Source: Camillea tinctor
Lineage: Eukaryota; Ascomycota; Sordariomycetes; Xylariales; Xylariaceae
Assembly: GCA_022578605.1 (NCBI GenBank)
Contig: MU394066.1
Location: 372,001 to 436,000 of the forward strand
Reading direction: 5' to 3'
DNA length: 64,000 nt
Of the stretch, positions 37,851 to 64,000 are shown piece after piece (position 1 is the first letter of the stretch; each line of letters opens with the position of its first letter). The notes under the pieces were generated by a model that worked only from the letters and a program-made list of their open reading frames with translations, did no database searches and was not told the DNA's origin. A program made the translations under genes and the position numbers.

Positions 37851-40800
37851 ATGAGTATAATTGGAAAGCTTCAAGCATCGTTGGCTTCGGCTAAACAGGA
37901 AACCACAGTTGCCTTTGCCAATGCCAACTTTGACTTTTCCCTCATACGCTGTGAGGCCCCAGCTGAATATAGGGAACTTGGTGTTGCGCTGGCGGAAAAT
38001 AAGAGGTCGGAGGCTGAGAGCGGACGGGCACATATCACCGCTATTCGCCTAGGATCCCTCTTCAAGAGCATCCTTCCAGAAACACCTGTACGTATATCCT
38101 GTTTCGACCGTTCAGCCATTCCAGCTCTCTTTATACTTTAGTTTCTGCTACGGTTAGGTATTCGGTAAGATTGACTAAGTTTTGAAATGAGTTAACATTG
38201 CCTAGAACCTTATTCGAGCCTATGGTACTCGAGCATCCGAGATAGCGCAGTCGCCAATAGTCAATCCTCGTGGGACTGAAGCACATGGCCCATTCAAAGA
38301 CTATGTTGGTGTTGGTAAGATATTTTATTATTCGTCACCTTTCTCCATTGATGCAGACACGTTTGCCTAGTTTCGAGAGCCTTCAGATCTATTACCTGTA
38401 ATCAACTTCCAAGCCCATGAATACCTTAATTACAAACCATGTAAATTATACTGATCTCTCATGTACAGATGGAACATCAATATGGGCTGCTGCAACATCT
38501 AGTTCGGCAGCTATAGCAGCGCATTTACTTGCTTGTATGATTGCATGCTGCTGGAGACACGACGAGGCAACCGCAATATGGCTGGAAATTGTATCAGAAC
38601 GGAAACGCGAGCTTGAAGAGAAGGTGACAGAAGAAGACTACTTCGTCCTAAGTGACGCGGTAGCTTCCAAACTTGAGCTTGATACAGATCAGCTTGCGAA
38701 TTGGGATACCAGCGCTAGAGCTTGGCTTGCTGCGGCCAGTGATGCCCCAATTGTCAAATTACGTCAAGCGGCAGTGAGAAGCTTGCTAAACAAAGTTAAC
38801 ACCCCCGTCAATGGCTGGAGAGATGTTTACAGCAGCGTGATGGAAGCATGGAAAGCCTCGCTTCAAACATTCGAGAAACTCATTTGTGGAGCAAGCTATA
38901 GCATTCATGATGGTGCTGTTATTCTCGCTCTGATGTCTTGGCATCTATACCCAGATATCATTGTTCAAGGACCCGCCGTTCAAGAAATCATCCAGAAAGA
39001 TGATCTTATTAGTCCTGGGGGTATAATCACAATTGGGTTGAGAAATCACCTGCCAGAAAACTCGTCAGAAACGCCTGGAGTCCACTGGTCATTGAGCCTC
39101 GGACACTTACGCTATTATGGTGCCAATAAACCGACGACTAGATCTCTCACGAATTTGCCATCGGGAAACGCCAGATTCACCTTCGAAGAATTTGTGCTTG
39201 TTTTTCTCGGGGCTATTATTGGACAGTGGAACCAGAAAGAGAGGATTTCACTAGAGTCAGCCTTGGAGTTCATCAACGTCGTAATTACCAAGTTTGGGGA
39301 GGCCATTTCTCGTGTGCCTGATCTCAAGTCTCGTGGACATTTACTATTTATATGGTCCTGGGTCTCTGTGATAAGCTCTGCGATAAGATCATGTAGACCT
39401 GAATTCCCAATGCAGCAAGAAGGCGCCCGAAAATTACTGTTATTGGGAATGCGAAAGTTTGACTTCCTCACAGAACCTAGTTCCAATAACGAAATGCCTG
39501 CCTTCCGCTTATTTGGTCTAGACACCTTGAAATTTGTCGAAGTCCTCGAAAATTCGGAAGTCCAGGATGAATATGTCAACAACTCATTCAGGCGATTCAT
39601 GAAGAGCCGTGAAAAGCTGCAGAACGGGAAACAAAAATTCTTTATTCGTATGGGAAAGTCAGAGAATCAAATAGATACCCTAATACTTTATTCTAGGCAT
39701 AAGATCAAGAAACCAGAAAATCAAGAGAATGAGATTACTGATGTGATTAGGAGTATCGAACCCGATGGCGGATATACTATCGACCTATTACCCCACTCAA
39801 TAACTAAACAGGTATCGAGTAATCCAGAGACCCTTTTATGGATGACTCCACCAAAACAGGTCCGAGAGCTGTTTGTTTCGGCCGCTATAACAACCAATCA
39901 AAGGGGCGTTGGAGAAGGGTTTCTGTTTATGAAGGTGGCCGAGACCAATAAGGAATCCATCTATGGTTCGGTTCACTTTTCTAATCATTGTGCTGTATCA
40001 GAGCGATGCCGATACTTCCCAAGTGATATACCTCAATCTTATGAGGAGGTTCTACAACATACGCAGAACAAGAAGCTAAACCCAGGAGGCGTACTCTGTA
40101 TTATGGACCAACTTCCTTTATTTAATCTTCTTCAGGTACTTGCCGCCAGCTCGGAGCTCTACTCCGAATTACCAGGTGCAACGATTACACCAGAAATCCT
40201 TGAGAGCAGAAGCATATGGTCCATCTCCATACGAACTTCTTGGACATTTCCGACATCGAGAAATTCAACCGGTTTTGCAGAGCATGCCATTGCAAGATTC
40301 AATGCAAATCGTGGGGATGCCTTCCGGATGTTAAGCTTTTTCGAGACTGGATATGATGTGGGAAGTACCCTGGGGTCGAGCTCAAAACGTCGGAACGACT
40401 GGTTGCAAAGTATTCTAGCTATCTCGACAGAAGACGCTCTTTATATTGCCTCGGAAATTCTGGGGGACCCTGCGAAGGGGACAAAGAAAATATCCAGTAT
40501 AAGGCGTATTCGTGGTAACGTCGGTCGGCCTGGACTAACTTTCATAGGATGGTTCTCGGACCAAGTAATGGAGTGTAGACAAGCAAGTCCGATGAGGTGG
40601 CAAGTTGTCAACCATAATCCTTTTGATGGGAAACTGGAGGACTACTTTGGAAATACTTCTATACATCTTCGGCCTACGGGATATGTCAAAGAGCTTAGCT
40701 TTGGTGCTAACAACCGCGTATCCAACGGCTCTATCATGGACGCGGCTCTGTCAGCTTATGACCAAGGGGAGTGGCTCGGTGATTTTCGCATATTCAATGT

Positions 40801-41233
40801 TTGGTCCACTCCGGAGTGTGGCATCGTTGTCCCTGTGGCTGGATGCACGGGCGAGGTTGTGGGAAGCTTGCCGGGAATAGAACTCGTCACCATAGAAAAC
40901 TGGGAAGAGTTTCTTAGCCCGCATCCATCCCTTCTGGCAGTTTTTAAATCCCATGGAAACTGGCAAGCCCGCCTCACAGCAGTAGCCATGTGTATTCAGC
41001 TCGGCTATCGCCCTATACTGTTCGGTGATCACGGTTGTTGGCGTTGTGCTCTCAAATTGTTGCCGGACGAAACAGCTGACAGCGAAGAGAGCGAAGCGGC
41101 ATCATCCTCAAGTGACGCTAGCGAGGATGAATCCCAAGATGACGAGCACGAGGCATTTAGCGAATCTAGTAGTCAACTTTCAAAGACCAGATCCCAAGCC
41201 TCTGAATATAAGCCAACTATATTCATTCTTTAG
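37851..41233 (+). CDS. Large uncharacterised fungal protein, 1,036 residues
   Basis: Three exons: 37851-38087, 38206-38314 and 38469-41233 (introns 118 and 154 bp), all in phase. The N-terminus (MSIIGKLQASLASAKQETTV, then FDFSLIRCEAPAEYRELG) and the block DGTSIWAAATSSSAAIAAHL look like a family conserved in filamentous fungi that I remember only as hypothetical. I see no catalytic motif, signal peptide or clear transmembrane segment apart from a hydrophobic helix (AAIAAHLLACMIACCW) near residue 130. The C-terminus is a Ser/Asp/Glu-rich disordered tail after GDHGCWRCALKLL. The protein reads as soluble and multi-domain. I assign no function. Confidence 0.85.
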
Positions 41234-55666: not shown

Positions 55667-56515
55667 TCATGCCTGGAAGACTTCATCCGCAGTAACACCC
55701 CAATCCTCTTCTCGGGGCTCGCCATAGGACTTGTACCACTCGAGGAGCTCGATCACATGCTGAAATACATGTGTGCCAAACTGTCCCAGGCAGGTAACAT
55801 AACGCCACGACCAACCCCGCTTCTCACCCTCGTGTTGCGGTCGGCTGTAGACAGCATAGCAAGTTGCCTCGTTCCCCTTCTCTCCACACGCCCATCCTCC
55901 AGCAATCTCATACTCCTCCCCGAGTCCCACAGTCTGATTGATGATCTCACTCGCCGTCCTGACCCTTCCTGCAGCGATTTCCTCAGTCAGGTCACCTAGT
56001 CCCCTATCGTTAACCCAACCCTCCAGGAAAACCACGCTCTCGTGCTCCTCGCGATACTTGTGCCAGCCCGGCCCCTCCAGGCTATCCACGTACTGAAGAA
56101 CGACCGTCAGGTCGCTAGGAAACTCCCATGTAGTAACGTGACCAGAGCACCGCTCGTTGAGACCTCGTAGCACTCCCCGTATGTAGACATCCCTCATCCA
56201 GTCACGCCAGGAGGCATCGTAGTATACTGAGGCTCCATCGAGGGTAAGCTGCGGGGCTAAGTCCTCCCAGTGCGTCAGCACGTCCGACGGACGAGTGATG
56301 GATGGGCGGGTGTCGCGGCCCTCGCCAACGAGTTGCAGGGTGAATTCCAGACGAGCCGCTTCCAGCTCCTCGTCTGATTCGAAAAGGTCCGGGTCGCCAG
56401 GACCAGCTGCCTGGATCTGTGGAATGATGGCCGAGAAGGCAAGATGGTTACGGTTGCCGATGTGTGCGCGATACGACAACAGAGCAGCGAGGATGGCGGG
56501 CTCAGGAGAAGACAT
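55667..56515 (-). CDS. Uncharacterised 282-residue protein
   Basis: Single-exon gene starting MSSPEPAILAALLSYRAHIG. It is acidic and soluble-looking, with no signal peptide or membrane segment. Tryptophan-rich motifs recur, such as ASWRDWMRDVYIRG, VVFLEGWVNDRGLGDL and GWSWRYVTCLGQFGTHVF, which suggests a folded globular domain. I recognise no family; a SUKH-like fold crossed my mind because of the short aromatic/acidic pattern, but I cannot support it. It lies directly upstream of a chitinase tail remnant on the same strand. The ATG at 56515 is the only in-frame start near the top, and an intact frame of this length with balanced composition suggests a real gene. Confidence 0.7.
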   Translation of the reverse strand: MSSPEPAILAALLSYRAHIGNRNHLAFSAIIPQIQAAGPGDPDLFESDEELEAARLEFTLQLVGEGRDTRPSITRPSDVLTHWEDLAPQLTLDGASVYYDASWRDWMRDVYIRGVLRGLNERCSGHVTTWEFPSDLTVVLQYVDSLEGPGWHKYREEHESVVFLEGWVNDRGLGDLTEEIAAGRVRTASEIINQTVGLGEEYEIAGGWACGEKGNEATCYAVYSRPQHEGEKRGWSWRYVTCLGQFGTHVFQHVIELLEWYKSYGEPREEDWGVTADEVFQA

Positions 56516-57265
56516 TGTGCTTCAACCAAGACTTTACGGTTTACGTGTTATAGTATAGCCGCGCTTTTGTTAAAATGACGTGTGAATGGATTGAAACATG
56601 GGTATGTGTATGTTAGCGTATTGCCCCCTTTCCTTTTGCTTTTGTTCCTTTTTGGTGGAAAAAGAAACGAATGGAGGGGAAGAAGGATTCTTGTATGTAC
56701 CAGAGGTACATTCTATATGTAACAGTGTTTGACATTTACATGGTTAGGTGCGATTGACTAAAATTGGTTAATAAATCATAATAAGTTTTAAAAAGTAATC
56801 TCTTCCTTATCTCCGCAAGTGTGCGATGGTATGGCATACGATAGAATACCCTGAATGAGATCTTCTGTCAGATGGAGGCTTCCGTCATCTAGGAGTTTCA
56901 TAAGACACTACAGAGTTAGGTCGTGTAGGGGAGATGACAACGTGCTTAGAAGCCTGCGATTATGAGAGTATTGAGTTTGTCGATATAAAATAATGCTGGT
57001 GGGGAAGTTGTCCGACGTCGATTCGACTTTAAAGCAACAAGGGGCAGTACTACGCCCATCACGAGATCCGCAGCTTTGCCCAATGAAACCGTTTCGCCTG
57101 GAGTAGCAGACTTTTTGCCTCCAGTTGGCGATTAAAGTAAAAAATAGCCAAGCTAGTTATAAGAAATTCGTTTATTCTTATATTGAGGGGGAATAGGGCT
57201 TTGGGAGCGAAAATGAGGAAAAAGGAGGAAAAAGGAAATACATCGCCGCCCAAAGGCCGGCTATA
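56516..57265. other. Intergenic spacer
   Basis: Upstream region of the 282-residue gene, ending at the foldback element. No coding signal seen. Confidence 0.5.
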
Positions 57266-58261
57266 TACACTCGTTTCGAAACAATAAGTCGCCCCCCACA
57301 TTTTTTTTACTTACACACACACAGTTTTTTGAATCAACTTCATTTTTATTGATTTTCATTATTTTTAATAATAACTTAATAATAATACATTTGTACGTAA
57401 TAATTTATATATTAAAATAAAGCTTTTTTAGTTACGAATTTAATGATGTAATTTTCTTTTAACTAGCTTAAAGATTGATTAAAATATAAGCGATTATTAG
57501 CAATATTAGCAAAAATAACGAAGCTATATATTGGTAATGTTAGCAATGTAAGTAATATAAGTGATGTTGGCGATGTTGGCGATGTTGGCGATGTTGGCAA
57601 TGTTGGCGATGTTGGCGATGTTGGCGATGTTGGCGATGTTGGCGATGTTGATGTAAGTGATGTTAATGATGTTGATGATGTTGGCGATGTTAATGTAAGT
57701 GATGTTGGCAATGTTAATGTAAGTGATGTTAATGATGTTAATGATGTTAATGATGTTAATGATGTTAATGATGTTAATAATGTTAATGATGTTAATGATG
57801 TTAATGATGTTAATAATGTTAATGATGTTAATGATGTTAATGATGTTAATGATGTTAATGATGTTAATAATGTTAATGATGTTAATGATGTTAATAATGT
57901 TAATGATGTTGGCGATGTTAATATAAGTAATGTTAGCGATGTTGATAATGTTGGCAATGTAAGTGATAATGGCGATGTTGGCGGGGTTAGCGGGGTTGGC
58001 AATGTAAAGTTGGCAAAAAAAAATGAATTAAAGTGTATATATTTTAATGAATTTTTAAGCTAGTTTAAAAAGAATTACATTATTAAATTCGCAATAAAGA
58101 AAGCTTTATTTTAATATTTATTTTATTATGTATAGATGTATTATTTTTACGTTATTAATGCTTTTATTAAAAAATGAGCAAAAGTGAAGTTGATTTAAAA
58201 AGTGTGTGTGTGTGAGTAGAAAAAAATATGGGGCGCGACTTATTGTTTGGAAACGAGTGTA
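57266..58261. mobile_element. Non-autonomous foldback DNA transposon with 225-bp TIRs
   Basis: Both ends read TACACTCGTTTC then AAACAATAAGTCGC from outside inward, and the similarity continues with small differences for about 225 bp (left arm to about 57490, right arm from about 58035). A TA dinucleotide flanks each end (57264-57265, 58262-58263), as expected for a TA target duplication. The arms are AT-rich and include a CA-repeat block and a shared TTAAAATAAAGCTTT block. The core between the arms is a 9-bp minisatellite. There is no transposase. It is about 996 bp long. Confidence 0.88.
57540..57990. repeat. 9-bp minisatellite (GATGTTAAT / GATGTTGGC)
   Basis: About fifty head-to-tail 9-bp units inside the foldback element. 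Outer units are mainly GATGTTGGC and inner units mainly GATGTTAAT, with occasional AATGTTAAT and AATGTAAGT. Open frames across it on both strands are repeat artefacts (Leu-Thr-Ser or Met-Leu-Met repeats). Confidence 0.95.
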
Positions 58262-59418: not shown

Positions 59419-60968
59419 TCAGCTCGAGCTCTCCTTGGCCCAGTTAGTTAATATTTCGTAAGCTACTTGGGCTGCTACTAGTGCCGTCGCCTCACCCGGC
59501 CCGTCGTACGCAGGGCTGACCTCGACAATGTCAGCGCCGATGATGTTCAATCCCTCTAGGCCCCGGAGTAGACGTATAACCTCGCGGCTTGAAAAGCCAC
59601 CAACCTCGGGGGTTCCTGTGCCAGGGGCGAGCCCGGGATCAACAACGTCGATGTCGAAGCTGAGATACACGGGAGCGTCGCCGAGACGGGCGCGCACCTT
59701 TGAGAGAATACCGCGGGTGCCGATCTCATCGACCTCGTCGGCCGCCACGCGCAGGAACCCCATCCGGTCGTCGTCGACCAGATCCGCCGGCCCGGACTAC
59801 GACATTGGGAAGTCAGTAAACGCCATATCAAGTCACAATTTTTTTTTATTTTTTTTCCCTGATAACCATGTCTCGGGAGCCAAAACCCGCATATGCCTAT
59901 AGGAGGCAATTTTAACTCCGAGACAGGCCTAAAAAGGGGGTGCAGAATACATAAATGAACTCCCCGGGTTTTTATCTACTCACAAGCCGCGTGCGCAACC
60001 CCACATGGGCCGACGTCCCGTTGGCGATCAAGCCCTCCCCCCACGCCAGCGCGAACACATCACCGTGGTTGAACCGCCCCGCTTCCGAGAACCAGGCGAA
60101 GTCCTCCGCGCTCGACGGCGGCATCCACGTGTCCAAGTGCGCGTCGAAGTGCAGCACCGCCACCGGCCTACCGTGCACCCGCCGTAGGGCCCGCAGGGCT
60201 CCGAGCGCGACGCTGTGGTCACCGCCTAGGGTGAGGAGCCGCGGTGGCCGCTGCTGGGCCCCCGGCCGTGCCCGGGATCCTAGTTCCGTCATGGCTTGCG
60301 TCATTTGCTCGAGCGCCACAGCGTTGTCGACGGGGAGCAGCGGGATGTCGCCGCAGTCTACGATCGTCAGGCCGGACTTGTAGGGGTTGATGCCCGCGCG
60401 GGGGTTCCAGCCCCGGGAGCGGGATTGCCGGGATGAGGCCGCGCGGATTGCGCGCGGACCGAAGCGGGCGCCTGGAATTTCACCGTTAGGAGGGGGGCTG
60501 TTAGGTGGGGGTGTAGGGATATAGCTTCTAGACGTACCGGTGCGGTACGAGACGGCTGTGTCGAAAGGGGCTCCTACGATGCCGATATCGAACGGTACGT
60601 CCGGTTCCGTCAGACATTTGACGTGCTCGAGGTGGGCAAACGTCGAGATGCCGGAATACGACCACTGTACATGATAGGGATAATCAAATGTATGGTTAAA
60701 AAGTACCCCTTGACACAAATCTTTGCCTGCCACTTACATCGAAACCCCATAGACGCTGAAGCTCGGCTTTCTTGCTCACAGCCTGGGGCGACTTGTTTTC
60801 GTATACATCAATTTGCGCCTTATGGTCATCGGCCATGTGCTGGGAGGGCACCAGCTGTAGTGCATAGCGAGTTACTACGATGAGCAGAAAAGCAACCGGT
60901 ATCGTCAAGAGAAGGAATAGATATGAGGCTTTGTGCTTCCTTAGGAAGCTTGTTGTATATGTGGTCAT
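59419..60968 (-). CDS. Membrane-anchored ureohydrolase (agmatinase/arginase superfamily)
   Basis: Binuclear manganese hydrolase that removes urea from a guanidino group; agmatine or an arginine derivative is the likely substrate class. Exons are 60968-60738, 60664-60538, 60471-59984 and 59796-59419, giving 407 residues. Metal-ligand motifs are intact: GGDHS (202-206), DAHLD (229-233) and SFDIDVVDP (D330, D332). FDTAVSYRTGARFGPRAIR and GTGTPEVGG fit the agmatinase branch. The N-terminus has RKHK (10-13) followed by one hydrophobic helix (about 14-33). This predicts a single-pass type II protein with the enzyme in the secretory lumen. Fungi also have soluble secreted agmatinase-like proteins, so this anchor is notable. 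It lies 493 bp from the repeat peptide precursor gene, on the same strand. A role in modifying that peptide is my inference. Confidence 0.9.
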
Positions 60969-61461: not shown

Positions 61462-62088
61462 TTAGCGAATGAGGTAGTCTTTGTTCTCCTCCGAGCGGAT
61501 GGCATAATCATTCTCAGAGCGAATAGCATAGTCGTTCTCTGAACGGATAGCGTAGTCATTTTCGGAACGAATGGCGTAGTCCTTATTCTCCTCAGAACGG
61601 ATTGCGTAGTCGTTCTCGGAGCGAATGGCGTAATCATTCTCTGAACGAATAGCATAGTCCTTGTTCTCCGAGCGGATAGCATAGTCTTGGGCCTCCGCAC
61701 GGATGGCATAGTCATTCTCTGAGCGAATAGCATAATCCTTATTCTCCTCAGAGCGAATCGCGTAGTCATTCGCAGAACGAATGGCGTAATCCTTGTCTTC
61801 GGAACGGATAGCATAGTCATTCTCCGAGCGGATAGCGTAGTCATTCTCTGAACGTATGGCGTAGTCGTTCTCAGAGCGAATGGCATAATCTTGGGCTTCA
61901 GCGCGAATGGCGTAGTCTTTGTTCTGCTCTGAACGAATAGCATAATCGTTCTCTGAGCGAATGGCATAGGGCTTGATGCCACGAATGGCGTAGTCATTCA
62001 CAGACCGGATGGCATACTCCTGAGACTCGGGCACAGGGGCAGCATAGACAGCTCCGGCAAGGGTGAGAAGGGTAAATGCGTACTTCAT
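61462..62088 (-). CDS. Secreted repeat peptide precursor, candidate dikaritin (UstA-like) RiPP precursor
   Basis: Single exon, 208 residues. A signal peptide (MKYAFTLLTLAGAVYA, cut probably before APVPES) is followed by 22 head-to-tail units, 21 ending in YAIR and the last in YLIR. The common unit is SENDYAIR (ten copies); variants include SEENKDYAIR, AEAQDYAIR, SENKDYAIR, SEDKDYAIR, SANDYAIR and an early GIKPYAIR. Codons for the same residues vary between units, so the peptide and not the DNA is being kept. Signal peptide plus tandem core repeats containing Tyr is the UstA/PhomA/dikaritin precursor plan, and YAI matches the ustiloxin B core YAIG except for Arg in place of Gly. There are no KR or RR pairs as normally used by Kex2; every unit could be freed by cutting after the single Arg. 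Alternative: a structural repeat protein. Confidence 0.85.
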   Translation of the reverse strand: MKYAFTLLTLAGAVYAAPVPESQEYAIRSVNDYAIRGIKPYAIRSENDYAIRSEQNKDYAIRAEAQDYAIRSENDYAIRSENDYAIRSENDYAIRSEDKDYAIRSANDYAIRSEENKDYAIRSENDYAIRAEAQDYAIRSENKDYAIRSENDYAIRSENDYAIRSEENKDYAIRSENDYAIRSENDYAIRSENDYAIRSEENKDYLIR

Positions 62089-63871
62089 CTTGAAGGTTGA
62101 AAGAGTAGACTTAAAGGATAGGTTGTTAAGGTGCTTAGGAACGTCTTGAGATGGATGTAGAGACTTGTCTGATGTGTCTCTGGTGAAATGTGAGGCGTTG
62201 AGCTGCCCTTTAATAGACAGTCTCACAGTTCCCAATCCCCTATTGCCTTTCCTCCTTCTCTCCTTCCCTCTCTCCTCCCTTCTCTCTATCCCTCTATCCC
62301 CTCCCCCCCCCCTTTCTCCCTCTCCCTTGGTATCCCCTCAATATTCCCCGCCGTCACATCATCGTCGTTGATTCCATTTGGACCACCGAGGTCATACGGA
62401 TTGCATCGACCGTTGGTCCGAGAAAGACCTCGTGCATGAATGTCGGTCTTCTTAGTCACATCTCTCAAACTGTATACACTAGACCGATGGGAAATTTGTG
62501 ATGAGGAGGATCGTGGCCCCGTTAGAAACCTTGGAATAACCGCACATCACGAAGCTCAATATATGCATGTCAGAGGCGTATGGTGTCAGCATGAGGCGTG
62601 ATTAGGTAGGGCAGTTTGGAACGTGTTAACTAACTTGCACGTATGCCGATGAGCCCCAAACGTAAATAACCAGAAATTCTTGGCGAAGATCACCGAAAGG
62701 GGTGAATTAATAGGAGGCTGCCCAAACACATCTTAGAACGTGGAAACTGGTCTTTCAAGGTTACTGTAAAGTCTAGGCGTTAGATATTCTATTCCTTGAA
62801 ATGCAGGCATTCAAATCTTAATAGGACTGTATACTGCCTCGGAGGTCCTCTTAATGATGCTGACACGTTCTGCTATGTAGTAGAGCTCATCCTGATTTAC
62901 TACGGACGCTATGTGCATATTCTATAGCCAGACGTGTAAAATGTTTAGTCAGGAATGCATGATGTAGCATACATATAACCTACATGTCAGCACAGGACAG
63001 TGTGTAGTATCATGTGATGTCGGTTAGACCATTTCGATGGGTCTACCTAGTATTCTTGCTTACGGTTTTATATCCAACGGGCATATGGACCCGAGTACAG
63101 ATGCAAATTCACGCACACCTGCGGCTCATGTGTTTGTTACCTTCCAAAGACGGTTTGTTTTCTCTAGGTGGAGTGGGAGTCTAGGTGGAGTCAGGCCGGA
63201 AGGATTTCTCCTATTAACTATAGAATTGCCCGCATCCTCCTGATTGGTCAAACCTGTTTAGATAGACTGAGTAACTTATAACTCTAGATTCCAAGATATG
63301 GAACCCGAGGAGTAATTATTGTAGATACAGTAGATTGTATAGAATTATCAACGAACTGATCTCTATTCTCTCGGTCAAATTTGACAATGATGCAATCGTG
63401 GCACTACGCCGCCTGGCTGGGGCCAGTACAGAGAAATACGGACAAGATTATCGCGAGGGGCCGATCCGTACATCAATATGGTCACATGTAATGAGGCTAC
63501 ATTTTCAGGGTCAATGGCAGTCCCCGGGAATCCAGCTTCGAAGAGAAACTGTTACTTCCTGTATGCTTCGTCTTATTATAAGCTTTACTATCCATGACGG
63601 CGAAGTAAGCGGCATAACTACCTAGGTAGTCTTTAGTATATGTCAAGGTTCCCCAAGTTGCGCAGGGAAAACTACCATTGCCCATCCACTGAGTTGATCA
63701 CACGAAATCTAAGGCCCTAACTCGTTCCTGAACTTATTCCTCAACTTGTTCTTATATATCTATTTGCCTGTATAGTTGCTCGTATAGACAGACTATCCTA
63801 GCATCATCTTGACTATACACTTCTCGTTACCTTCAACTCACGATAAGCCCCGACTTCACTAAAGGTCCAAT
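62089..63871. promoter_or_regulatory. Divergent promoter region between the precursor and the UstYa-like start
   Basis: About 1.8 kb. The part next to the precursor gene has a long CT-rich tract (62230-62345). Near 63760 a TATATA stretch lies about 110 bp before the plus-strand start. Short frames in between (for example 63335-63625) show no recognisable content. Confidence 0.5.
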
Positions 63872-64000
63872 ATGGCCCCTAGGAATCAGGAATTGAAAGA
63901 CGTAGAAGTGGGAGAGCCTTTACTGGCGAGCTCATCTTTCTCGTCGCGATCCTCCGAGTCCAGCCCAACCGGCAGGCAGCCTTGTCATGCATGTATCCTC
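63872..64000 (+). CDS. Start of a possible UstYa/DUF3328-like protein (cut by window end)
   Basis: Only the first 43 codons are present. The frame reads MAPRNQELKDVEVGEPLLAS and then a Ser-rich stretch ending in TGRQPCHACIL at the edge. A short acidic and Ser-rich cytosolic head with a PLL motif, followed by the onset of a hydrophobic segment, is the usual N-terminus of UstYa-type (DUF3328) oxidases, which are type II membrane proteins. The diagnostic HxxHC motifs would lie beyond the window. Divergent position next to the repeat precursor supports the idea. It could equally be another membrane protein or a chance frame. Confidence 0.4.
   Translation, partial: MAPRNQELKDVEVGEPLLASSSFSSRSSESSPTGRQPCHACIL

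Follow-up and report, generated by a model that had tools for sequence, protein, structure and literature searches.

We describe a predicted gene cluster of Camillea tinctor in which a repeat precursor peptide, a UstYa oxidase and an ABC transporter are accompanied by an arginase-family enzyme (ureohydrolase), and in which, judging from sequence, the arginine that closes every precursor unit may be converted to ornithine. The cluster is compact and lies partly in the window, the stretch of 64,000 nucleotides analysed here (bases 372001-436000 of contig C16, which is 720,939 bases long, in an assembly of 44.7 Mb), and partly just beyond it. We regard it as highly probable that the locus is a dikaritin-type RiPP cluster, while action of the ureohydrolase on the Arg of the peptide is about as likely as not. 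The full reading that we narrowly favour is that of a dikaritin-type RiPP that would be cut after Arg and crosslinked by UstYa, and whose Arg would become ornithine through a peptide arginase of independent origin.

The YAIR repeat precursor occupies positions 61462..62088 of the window on the minus strand as a single exon, the translation of which has no inner stop and gives 208 amino acids starting with MKYAFTLLTLAGAVYA followed by APVPESQEYAIR. The putative signal peptide MKYAFTLLTLAGAVYA (62041..62088, minus strand) and its putative cleavage site were judged and placed by eye, and the 22 units behind it, all ending in Y[AL]IR (61465..62040, minus strand), measure 8-10 amino acids each, with 12 in the first. 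A longer, TTG-started frame (61462-62235) was rejected in favour of the ATG at 62088, because the signal peptide begins there. The preliminary description had proposed a protein with a secretion signal and 22 tandem units ending in YAIR, with YLIR in the last, and both the translation and a script-based split confirmed this, giving YAIR at the end of 21 of 22 units and YLIR in the final one. SENDYAIR is the commonest unit (10/22), and Asp directly precedes Tyr in 20 of the 22. It had also been noticed that synonymous codons vary while the peptide stays fixed, and counting bears this out: in the 190 pairwise comparisons of the 20 inner units, the YAIR codons show 420 synonymous versus 0 non-synonymous differences, and when all 22 units (231 pairs) are compared over their closing five codons, up to and including YxIR, third positions account for 625 of 709 nucleotide differences. 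Since the differences are mostly synonymous or in third position, it is the peptide, not the DNA, that is conserved.

Across 2000 composition-preserving shuffles of the precursor, Y[AL]IR appeared at most 2 times (mean 0.04), whereas the precursor has it 22 times; a six-frame translation of all 64 kb gives just 2 further instances. Chance is therefore excluded as the source of the motif. All 22 Arg of the precursor fall within Y[AL]IR, each as the last residue of its unit, and none of the dibasic pairs KR, RR, KK and RK occurs anywhere in the 208 amino acids. The precursor thus offers Kex2 none of its usual dibasic targets, nor does any other basic site recur in step with the units; the cut is likely to be made at this Arg. 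Kex2 requires Arg at P1 and, in the part of PMC8528282 that deals with its specificity, has Ile among the better alternatives at P2, which makes a cut after YAIR plausible; P4 of the putative cut is Tyr, not the preferred aliphatic residue. When compared with its own genome the precursor protein matched only itself, its Pfam matches were all below curated cut-offs, and NCBIfam returned one low-scoring chance match. Elsewhere in the window (57463-58060), (SLT)n or (VND)n-like repeats fill open frames on both strands of a low-complexity tract that looks like simple repeat DNA rather than a gene.

A homologous precursor was found in Nemania serpens (P0002, E 9.2e-18), the sole homologue among the 7991 candidates scored, which were those sharing most words. 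It is a partial protein of 139 amino acids on a contig of 666,478 bases. Its gene model starts farther upstream, and its likeness to the C. tinctor precursor is plain from about the same Met, where a nearly identical signal start is found (MKYAFTLLVLTGAVFA). Counted from that signal Met onward, six YAIR and one HLIR contain all 7 Arg, and no dibasic pair is present. YAIR precursors are known from these two species only, the Nemania one being partial; another Nemania species (FL0031) has a UstYa gene and a ureohydrolase on contigs of equal size, used here as a proxy for the same contig.

The UstYa/DUF3328 gene starts in the window on the plus strand (63872..64000) and continues past it to C16:436845 (L026:4872-5845). 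It has one intron and encodes 304 amino acids with both HxxHC motifs (HQIHC and HQRHC), and the spliced protein matches PF11807 at E 8.7e-54. The preliminary description had asked for a search beyond the 64 kb for a DUF3328 (HxxHC) gene, with about 20 kb as the limit, and one is indeed present, 1.8 kb from the precursor start. The ustiloxin-type RiPP interpretation given there is likewise supported, as the UstYa neighbour, the signal peptide, the repeat anatomy and the [D]Y-A-I core fit dikaritin precursors, which in the relevant passages of PMC7329392 and PMC6339444 carry a signal peptide and repeated Y-x-I cores, the cyclisation of which requires UstYa-type enzymes. The divergent starts of the precursor and UstYa genes are separated by 1.8 kb (62089..63871), a putative shared promoter inside which no open frame of at least 200 codons both starts and ends.

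After the UstYa gene, on the opposite strand, comes the ABC transporter (L026:6287-10000, on into L027, minus strand). No frame of at least 200 codons was found between window positions 41230 and 55670, or for 6.8 kb past the transporter, and the long open frames at window 38402-41227 (plus strand, 942 codons) and 55670-56518 (minus strand, 283 codons) gave no Pfam match at E 0.001. Contig C16 has one UstYa gene and none of the 21 tyrosinase (PF00264) matches of the genome, and viral contigs yielded no UstYa relatives. A segment about 25-30 kb from the RiPP cluster (L029:5121-5618, minus strand, ~G000:C16:466121-466618) belongs to a gene of the terpene synthase family (PF19086). On contig C5, another repeat precursor (L030:2900-3445, minus strand, ~G000:C5:986900-987445), with 7 units around NNVDAAATRSGWLYIK and KR- or ER-type ends, is found close to about five UstYa genes (C5:990-999 kb); this locus is predicted to be a second, more conventional dikaritin-like cluster of the C. 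tinctor genome.

The preliminary description had spoken of an 'Arg-derived C-terminus', and the adjacent arginase-family gene, absent from that account, bears directly on it. This ureohydrolase gene (PF00491; 59419..60968, minus strand) has four exons, with introns at 60665-60737, 60472-60537 and 59797-59983, and its splice model is identical to a 407-amino-acid database protein (P0003). PF00491 is the sole Pfam family matched at E 0.001 (E 5e-85), and the protein contains the motifs GGDHS, DAHLD and SFDIDVVDP. An N-terminal membrane anchor at about residues 14-35 (60864..60929, minus strand) reaches a hydropathy of 2.59 at residue 14 and coincides with a helix (13-37) in the AlphaFold model; the basic residues preceding it suggest that the catalytic domain would face the lumen. 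The model has a mean pLDDT of 75 and is weak in loop A, the segment between DAHLD and the shuttle His (<50 at 232-238 and 244-248). Its best fold match is proclavaminate amidinohydrolase (1gq6, E 2.5e-22), with agmatinases next at ~1e-21, and the nearest solved relatives are mostly agmatinase-like, not arginase-like. In NCBIfam the protein is nearest to agmatinases, yet below both agmatinase cut-offs, and many of its listed relatives carry the name agmatinase. Among the five arginase-family loci matched in the genome, this is the sole one to have a UstYa match inside 20 kb. An arginase-family copy on contig C55 is ~248 kb from a UstYa match; the agmatinase-like paralogue on that contig (L033, G000:C55:4416-5273, minus strand) ends in SVKDEL and, by this tail, is apparently ER-resident.

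To place the enzyme among its relatives, the best 120 of 8000 sequences scored were compared, query included. Thirteen of these, again including the query, were chosen by an identity of at least 71% and are here called the clade, while the other 107 are 55-66% identical; going by species names, the clade presumably covers Xylariales, Hypocreales, Glomerellales and Diaporthales, with the addition of Cudoniella. In a tree of the 13 clade members and 60 of the other 107, the clade forms one side of a branch with an SH-aLRT of 100, and because the root is a midpoint, the direction of change in this tree is one that we infer. A K/RDEL C-terminus is found in 0/13 clade members versus 100/107 of the other listed relatives, and the N-termini of these relatives, where given, look by eye like cleavable signals. 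All six clade models that keep their N-terminus have a strong anchor there (hydropathy 2.25-2.72); the stretch is missing from the other 7 of 13, which are probably shortened gene models. Among the 107 others the highest value is 2.60 and the second highest 2.21, so that the anchor characterises the clade without being confined to it, and we do not count it as a unique clade feature.

Eight residues (H205, D229, H231, D233, H255, D330, D332 and E374) do not vary among 13/13 clade members and 107/107 others; going by what is known of the family, we take them to be the Mn ligands, the shuttle His and the catalytic Glu. The Asn-270 glycosylation site is also present in all 13 and in all 107, and was for that reason discarded as proof of a special lumenal role. 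Because the K/RDEL relatives are secretory by their tails and share the Asn-270 site, lumenal location alone is no argument for a peptide substrate. Clade-diagnostic positions number 25, with 11 falling in loop A and the loop before VDCGD, which together make up 43 of 338 testable columns; the enrichment (hypergeometric P 5e-5) is indicative only, because both regions were fixed after the positions had been seen. Loop A of the clade carries a 2-residue insert missing from 106/107 of the others. In the sections of PMC8125230 concerned with E. coli agmatinase, an enzyme for which no activity was detected on free Arg, loop A and a loop of the neighbouring subunit shape substrate affinity; from the alignment, the loop before VDCGD would be the counterpart of that neighbouring-subunit loop. 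The clade is well supported and sits beside the fungal agmatinases, with its putative substrate loops changed and its predicted Mn site intact.

Linkage in other fungi was judged indirectly, with two contigs of equal size in bases standing in for one and the same contig, among 31 UstYa matches and 120 ureohydrolases listed. By this measure, a UstYa partner exists for 6/13 clade members versus 0/107 of the other listed ureohydrolases. The pairs are those of Camillea (contig of 720939 bases), Nemania sp. FL0031 (227,959 bases), Hirsutella rhossiliensis (8,340,697 bases) and Colletotrichum sublineola (12,128 bases), together with two further ones (jgi and lgn; 14,064 and 10,927 bases). Chance pairing is unlikely because three of the six shared contigs are only 11-14 kb long. 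Among the matches listed, 7/13 clade members and 25/31 UstYa proteins have no equal-size partner, including those of Diatrype stigma and Cladobotryum, and Cudoniella has both genes on contigs of different size. Missing partners can be hidden by clustering at 90% identity or by missing gene models, and real absence is also possible. The UstYa and ureohydrolase distances of the six pairs show a modest correlation (r 0.61), with 31/720 permutations as high.

The recurrence of UstYa with this ureohydrolase, the changed loops and the confinement of all Arg to the units lead us to favour the conversion of Arg to ornithine. In the pathway that we propose, the precursor would enter the ER, UstYa would join the Tyr phenol to the Ile side chain in ustiloxin fashion, and Kex2 or a similar protease would cut after the single Arg, freeing mostly 8-10-mers ending in YAIR. 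Located in that lumen as well, the ureohydrolase would then turn peptidyl Arg, most likely the C-terminal one, into ornithine and urea, yielding a product core of crosslinked Tyr-Ala-Ile-Orn whose Orn end would shield the C-terminus from Arg-directed proteases and which the ABC protein would export. As for the ureohydrolase itself, its ancestor may have been an agmatinase-like protein of the ER, with a K/RDEL tail for retention, which shed this tail, acquired an anchor and had its substrate loops rebuilt.

There are other possible explanations for the same set of genes. The product could be of dikaritin type with Arg as just a protease site, in which case Kex2 cuts, Kex1 trims the Arg and a crosslinked peptide ending in ...DYAI results, while the ureohydrolase either disposes of the freed Arg or acts in a manner unrelated to the core. 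Arg is P1 of every possible Kex2 site here, with Ile tolerated at P2, the solved relatives of the ureohydrolase act on small guanidines, and in the processing of pheromone precursors Kex1 takes off the basic residues that Kex2 leaves behind, as one passage of PMC6339444 relates. We nevertheless consider such trimming unlikely, as it leaves unexplained the recurrence of an anchored, loop-changed ureohydrolase with UstYa in several fungi, and a dibasic-type site would suffice for cleavage, as in the genome's second repeat precursor. It is more doubtful still that the enzyme of a RiPP cluster works on agmatine or a pathway guanidine and so supplies putrescine or another amine building block. The nearest NCBIfam families, although their cut-offs are not reached, and the names of many listed relatives would agree with an agmatinase, but a scan of a small number of neighbouring frames recognised no decarboxylase or amine-coupling enzyme, and an obvious substrate is at hand in the 22 Arg of the precursor.

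It is very improbable, in our estimation, that the precursor is a structural or cell-wall repeat protein that gives no small product and has UstYa and the ureohydrolase nearby by chance. Secreted fungal repeat proteins can be structural, Ustilago Rep1 being an example treated in a portion of PMC7329392. Against this, the UstYa gene is 1.8 kb off, UstYa and the clade ureohydrolase recur on equal-size contigs, three of them of 11-14 kb, and the fixed core agrees with EDYXI, the ustiloxin and phomopsin motif given in an excerpt of PMC6339444. Cyclobiscognioxin A, from a related genus, was considered as the product and rejected, being cyclo-(Phe-Leu-Leu-Leu-Ile) without Tyr or Arg.

The Arg-to-ornithine reading may also extend beyond this locus, in a broader form that we put forward tentatively, being slightly more inclined to doubt than to accept it as a whole. 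It holds jointly that a second, unrelated peptide arginase arose in fungi, from an ER agmatinase with a K/RDEL tail that was duplicated, lost the tail, became anchored and acquired a new loop A; that this enzyme was recruited beside UstYa, where it turns the Arg of crosslinked Y-x-I-R cores into ornithine; and that there may be a widespread, unrecognised family of Orn-containing dikaritins in Sordariomycetes and beyond, the precursors of which would have no dibasic sites and hence lie outside published repeat-protein surveys. If true, the change of Arg to Orn would be a new chemical step for fungal ribosomal peptides, the same reaction would have evolved on two occasions, in separate branches of the ureohydrolase fold, and a eukaryotic enzyme of the secretory pathway would be at hand for introducing ornithine into peptides. 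Surveys that demand dibasic Kex2 sites leave out precursors like the YAIR one, and the gene pair PF11807 + PF00491 is a simple search key for such precursors. Titles and abstract openings, mostly outside subscription journals, disclosed no fungal RiPP arginase, and for peptide arginases with a fungal context they gave bacterial or engineered systems only; neither an ustiloxin-type YAIR core nor an agmatinase paired with UstYa was found in the same, mostly non-subscription literature. The word arginase is absent from the main texts of PMC7329392 and PMC12048977, as is agmatinase from the latter.

The closest known systems are ustiloxin B and phomopsin (cores YAIG and YVIP), which share with the present cluster a signal peptide, a repeated Y-x-I core after an acidic residue, a UstYa/DUF3328 oxidase with two HxxHC motifs and a transporter nearby. 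The fourth core residue is Arg here, whereas theirs is Gly or Pro, and unlike them the present locus has no dibasic Kex2 sites, one UstYa gene on the contig, no tyrosinase match there and an arginase-family enzyme adjacent. UstYa/DUF3328 is described as class-defining for dikaritins in parts of PMC12048977, where working clusters lacking at least one member of the older five-gene definition are also reported. The C. tinctor locus has the UstYa with its two HxxHC motifs, a precursor with leader and repeated cores, and a transporter; on C16 the tyrosinase of the older definition was not matched, and one UstYa gene is present where that definition names multiple DUF3328 genes and a methyltransferase, for which the analysis covered the long ORFs and a small set of Pfam searches. 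As with KEPs, in the descriptions contained in PMC6339444 and PMC7329392, the precursor is a secreted protein whose short repeats are almost the same and each close with a basic residue. The KEP survey of PMC7329392, by the selection rule it gives, required KR, KK, RK or RR between repeats, and PMC6339444, in the corresponding passage, took Kex2 sites to be KR, RR or KK. By those rules the YAIR precursor would be missed because it has no dibasic pairs; unlike the KEPs of these surveys it has no dibasic separators, and it is not filed as one.

On the enzyme side, the closest family is that of the K/RDEL agmatinase-like fungal proteins, which are 55-66% identical among those listed and have the same catalytic set and glycosylation site. 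Unlike the clade, they have the K/RDEL tail in 100/107 cases, a loop A two residues shorter in 106/107 and a UstYa on an equal-size contig in 0/107 of those listed. Proclavaminate amidinohydrolase (1gq6), the best fold match, nearly tied with the agmatinases, is likewise a ureohydrolase of natural-product biosynthesis and acts on an N-substituted arginine derivative; it differs from the C. tinctor enzyme in that it is bacterial, has a small-molecule substrate where a peptide is proposed here, and is not known to carry a membrane anchor. The bacterial peptide arginase OspR of the landornamide pathway, as characterised in the pertinent parts of PMC10028609, shares with our proposal the reaction, in which the Arg of a RiPP becomes Orn while still part of the peptide, and the Mn-dependent arginase chemistry. 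OspR belongs to pfam12640, with the motifs EEH(N/H)EAF, DXHXD and LDIDLDYFSC, whereas the enzyme described here belongs to PF00491, with GGDHS, DAHLD and SFDIDVVDP; it is eukaryotic and membrane-anchored, unlike OspR, and would represent a separate origin of the same reaction.
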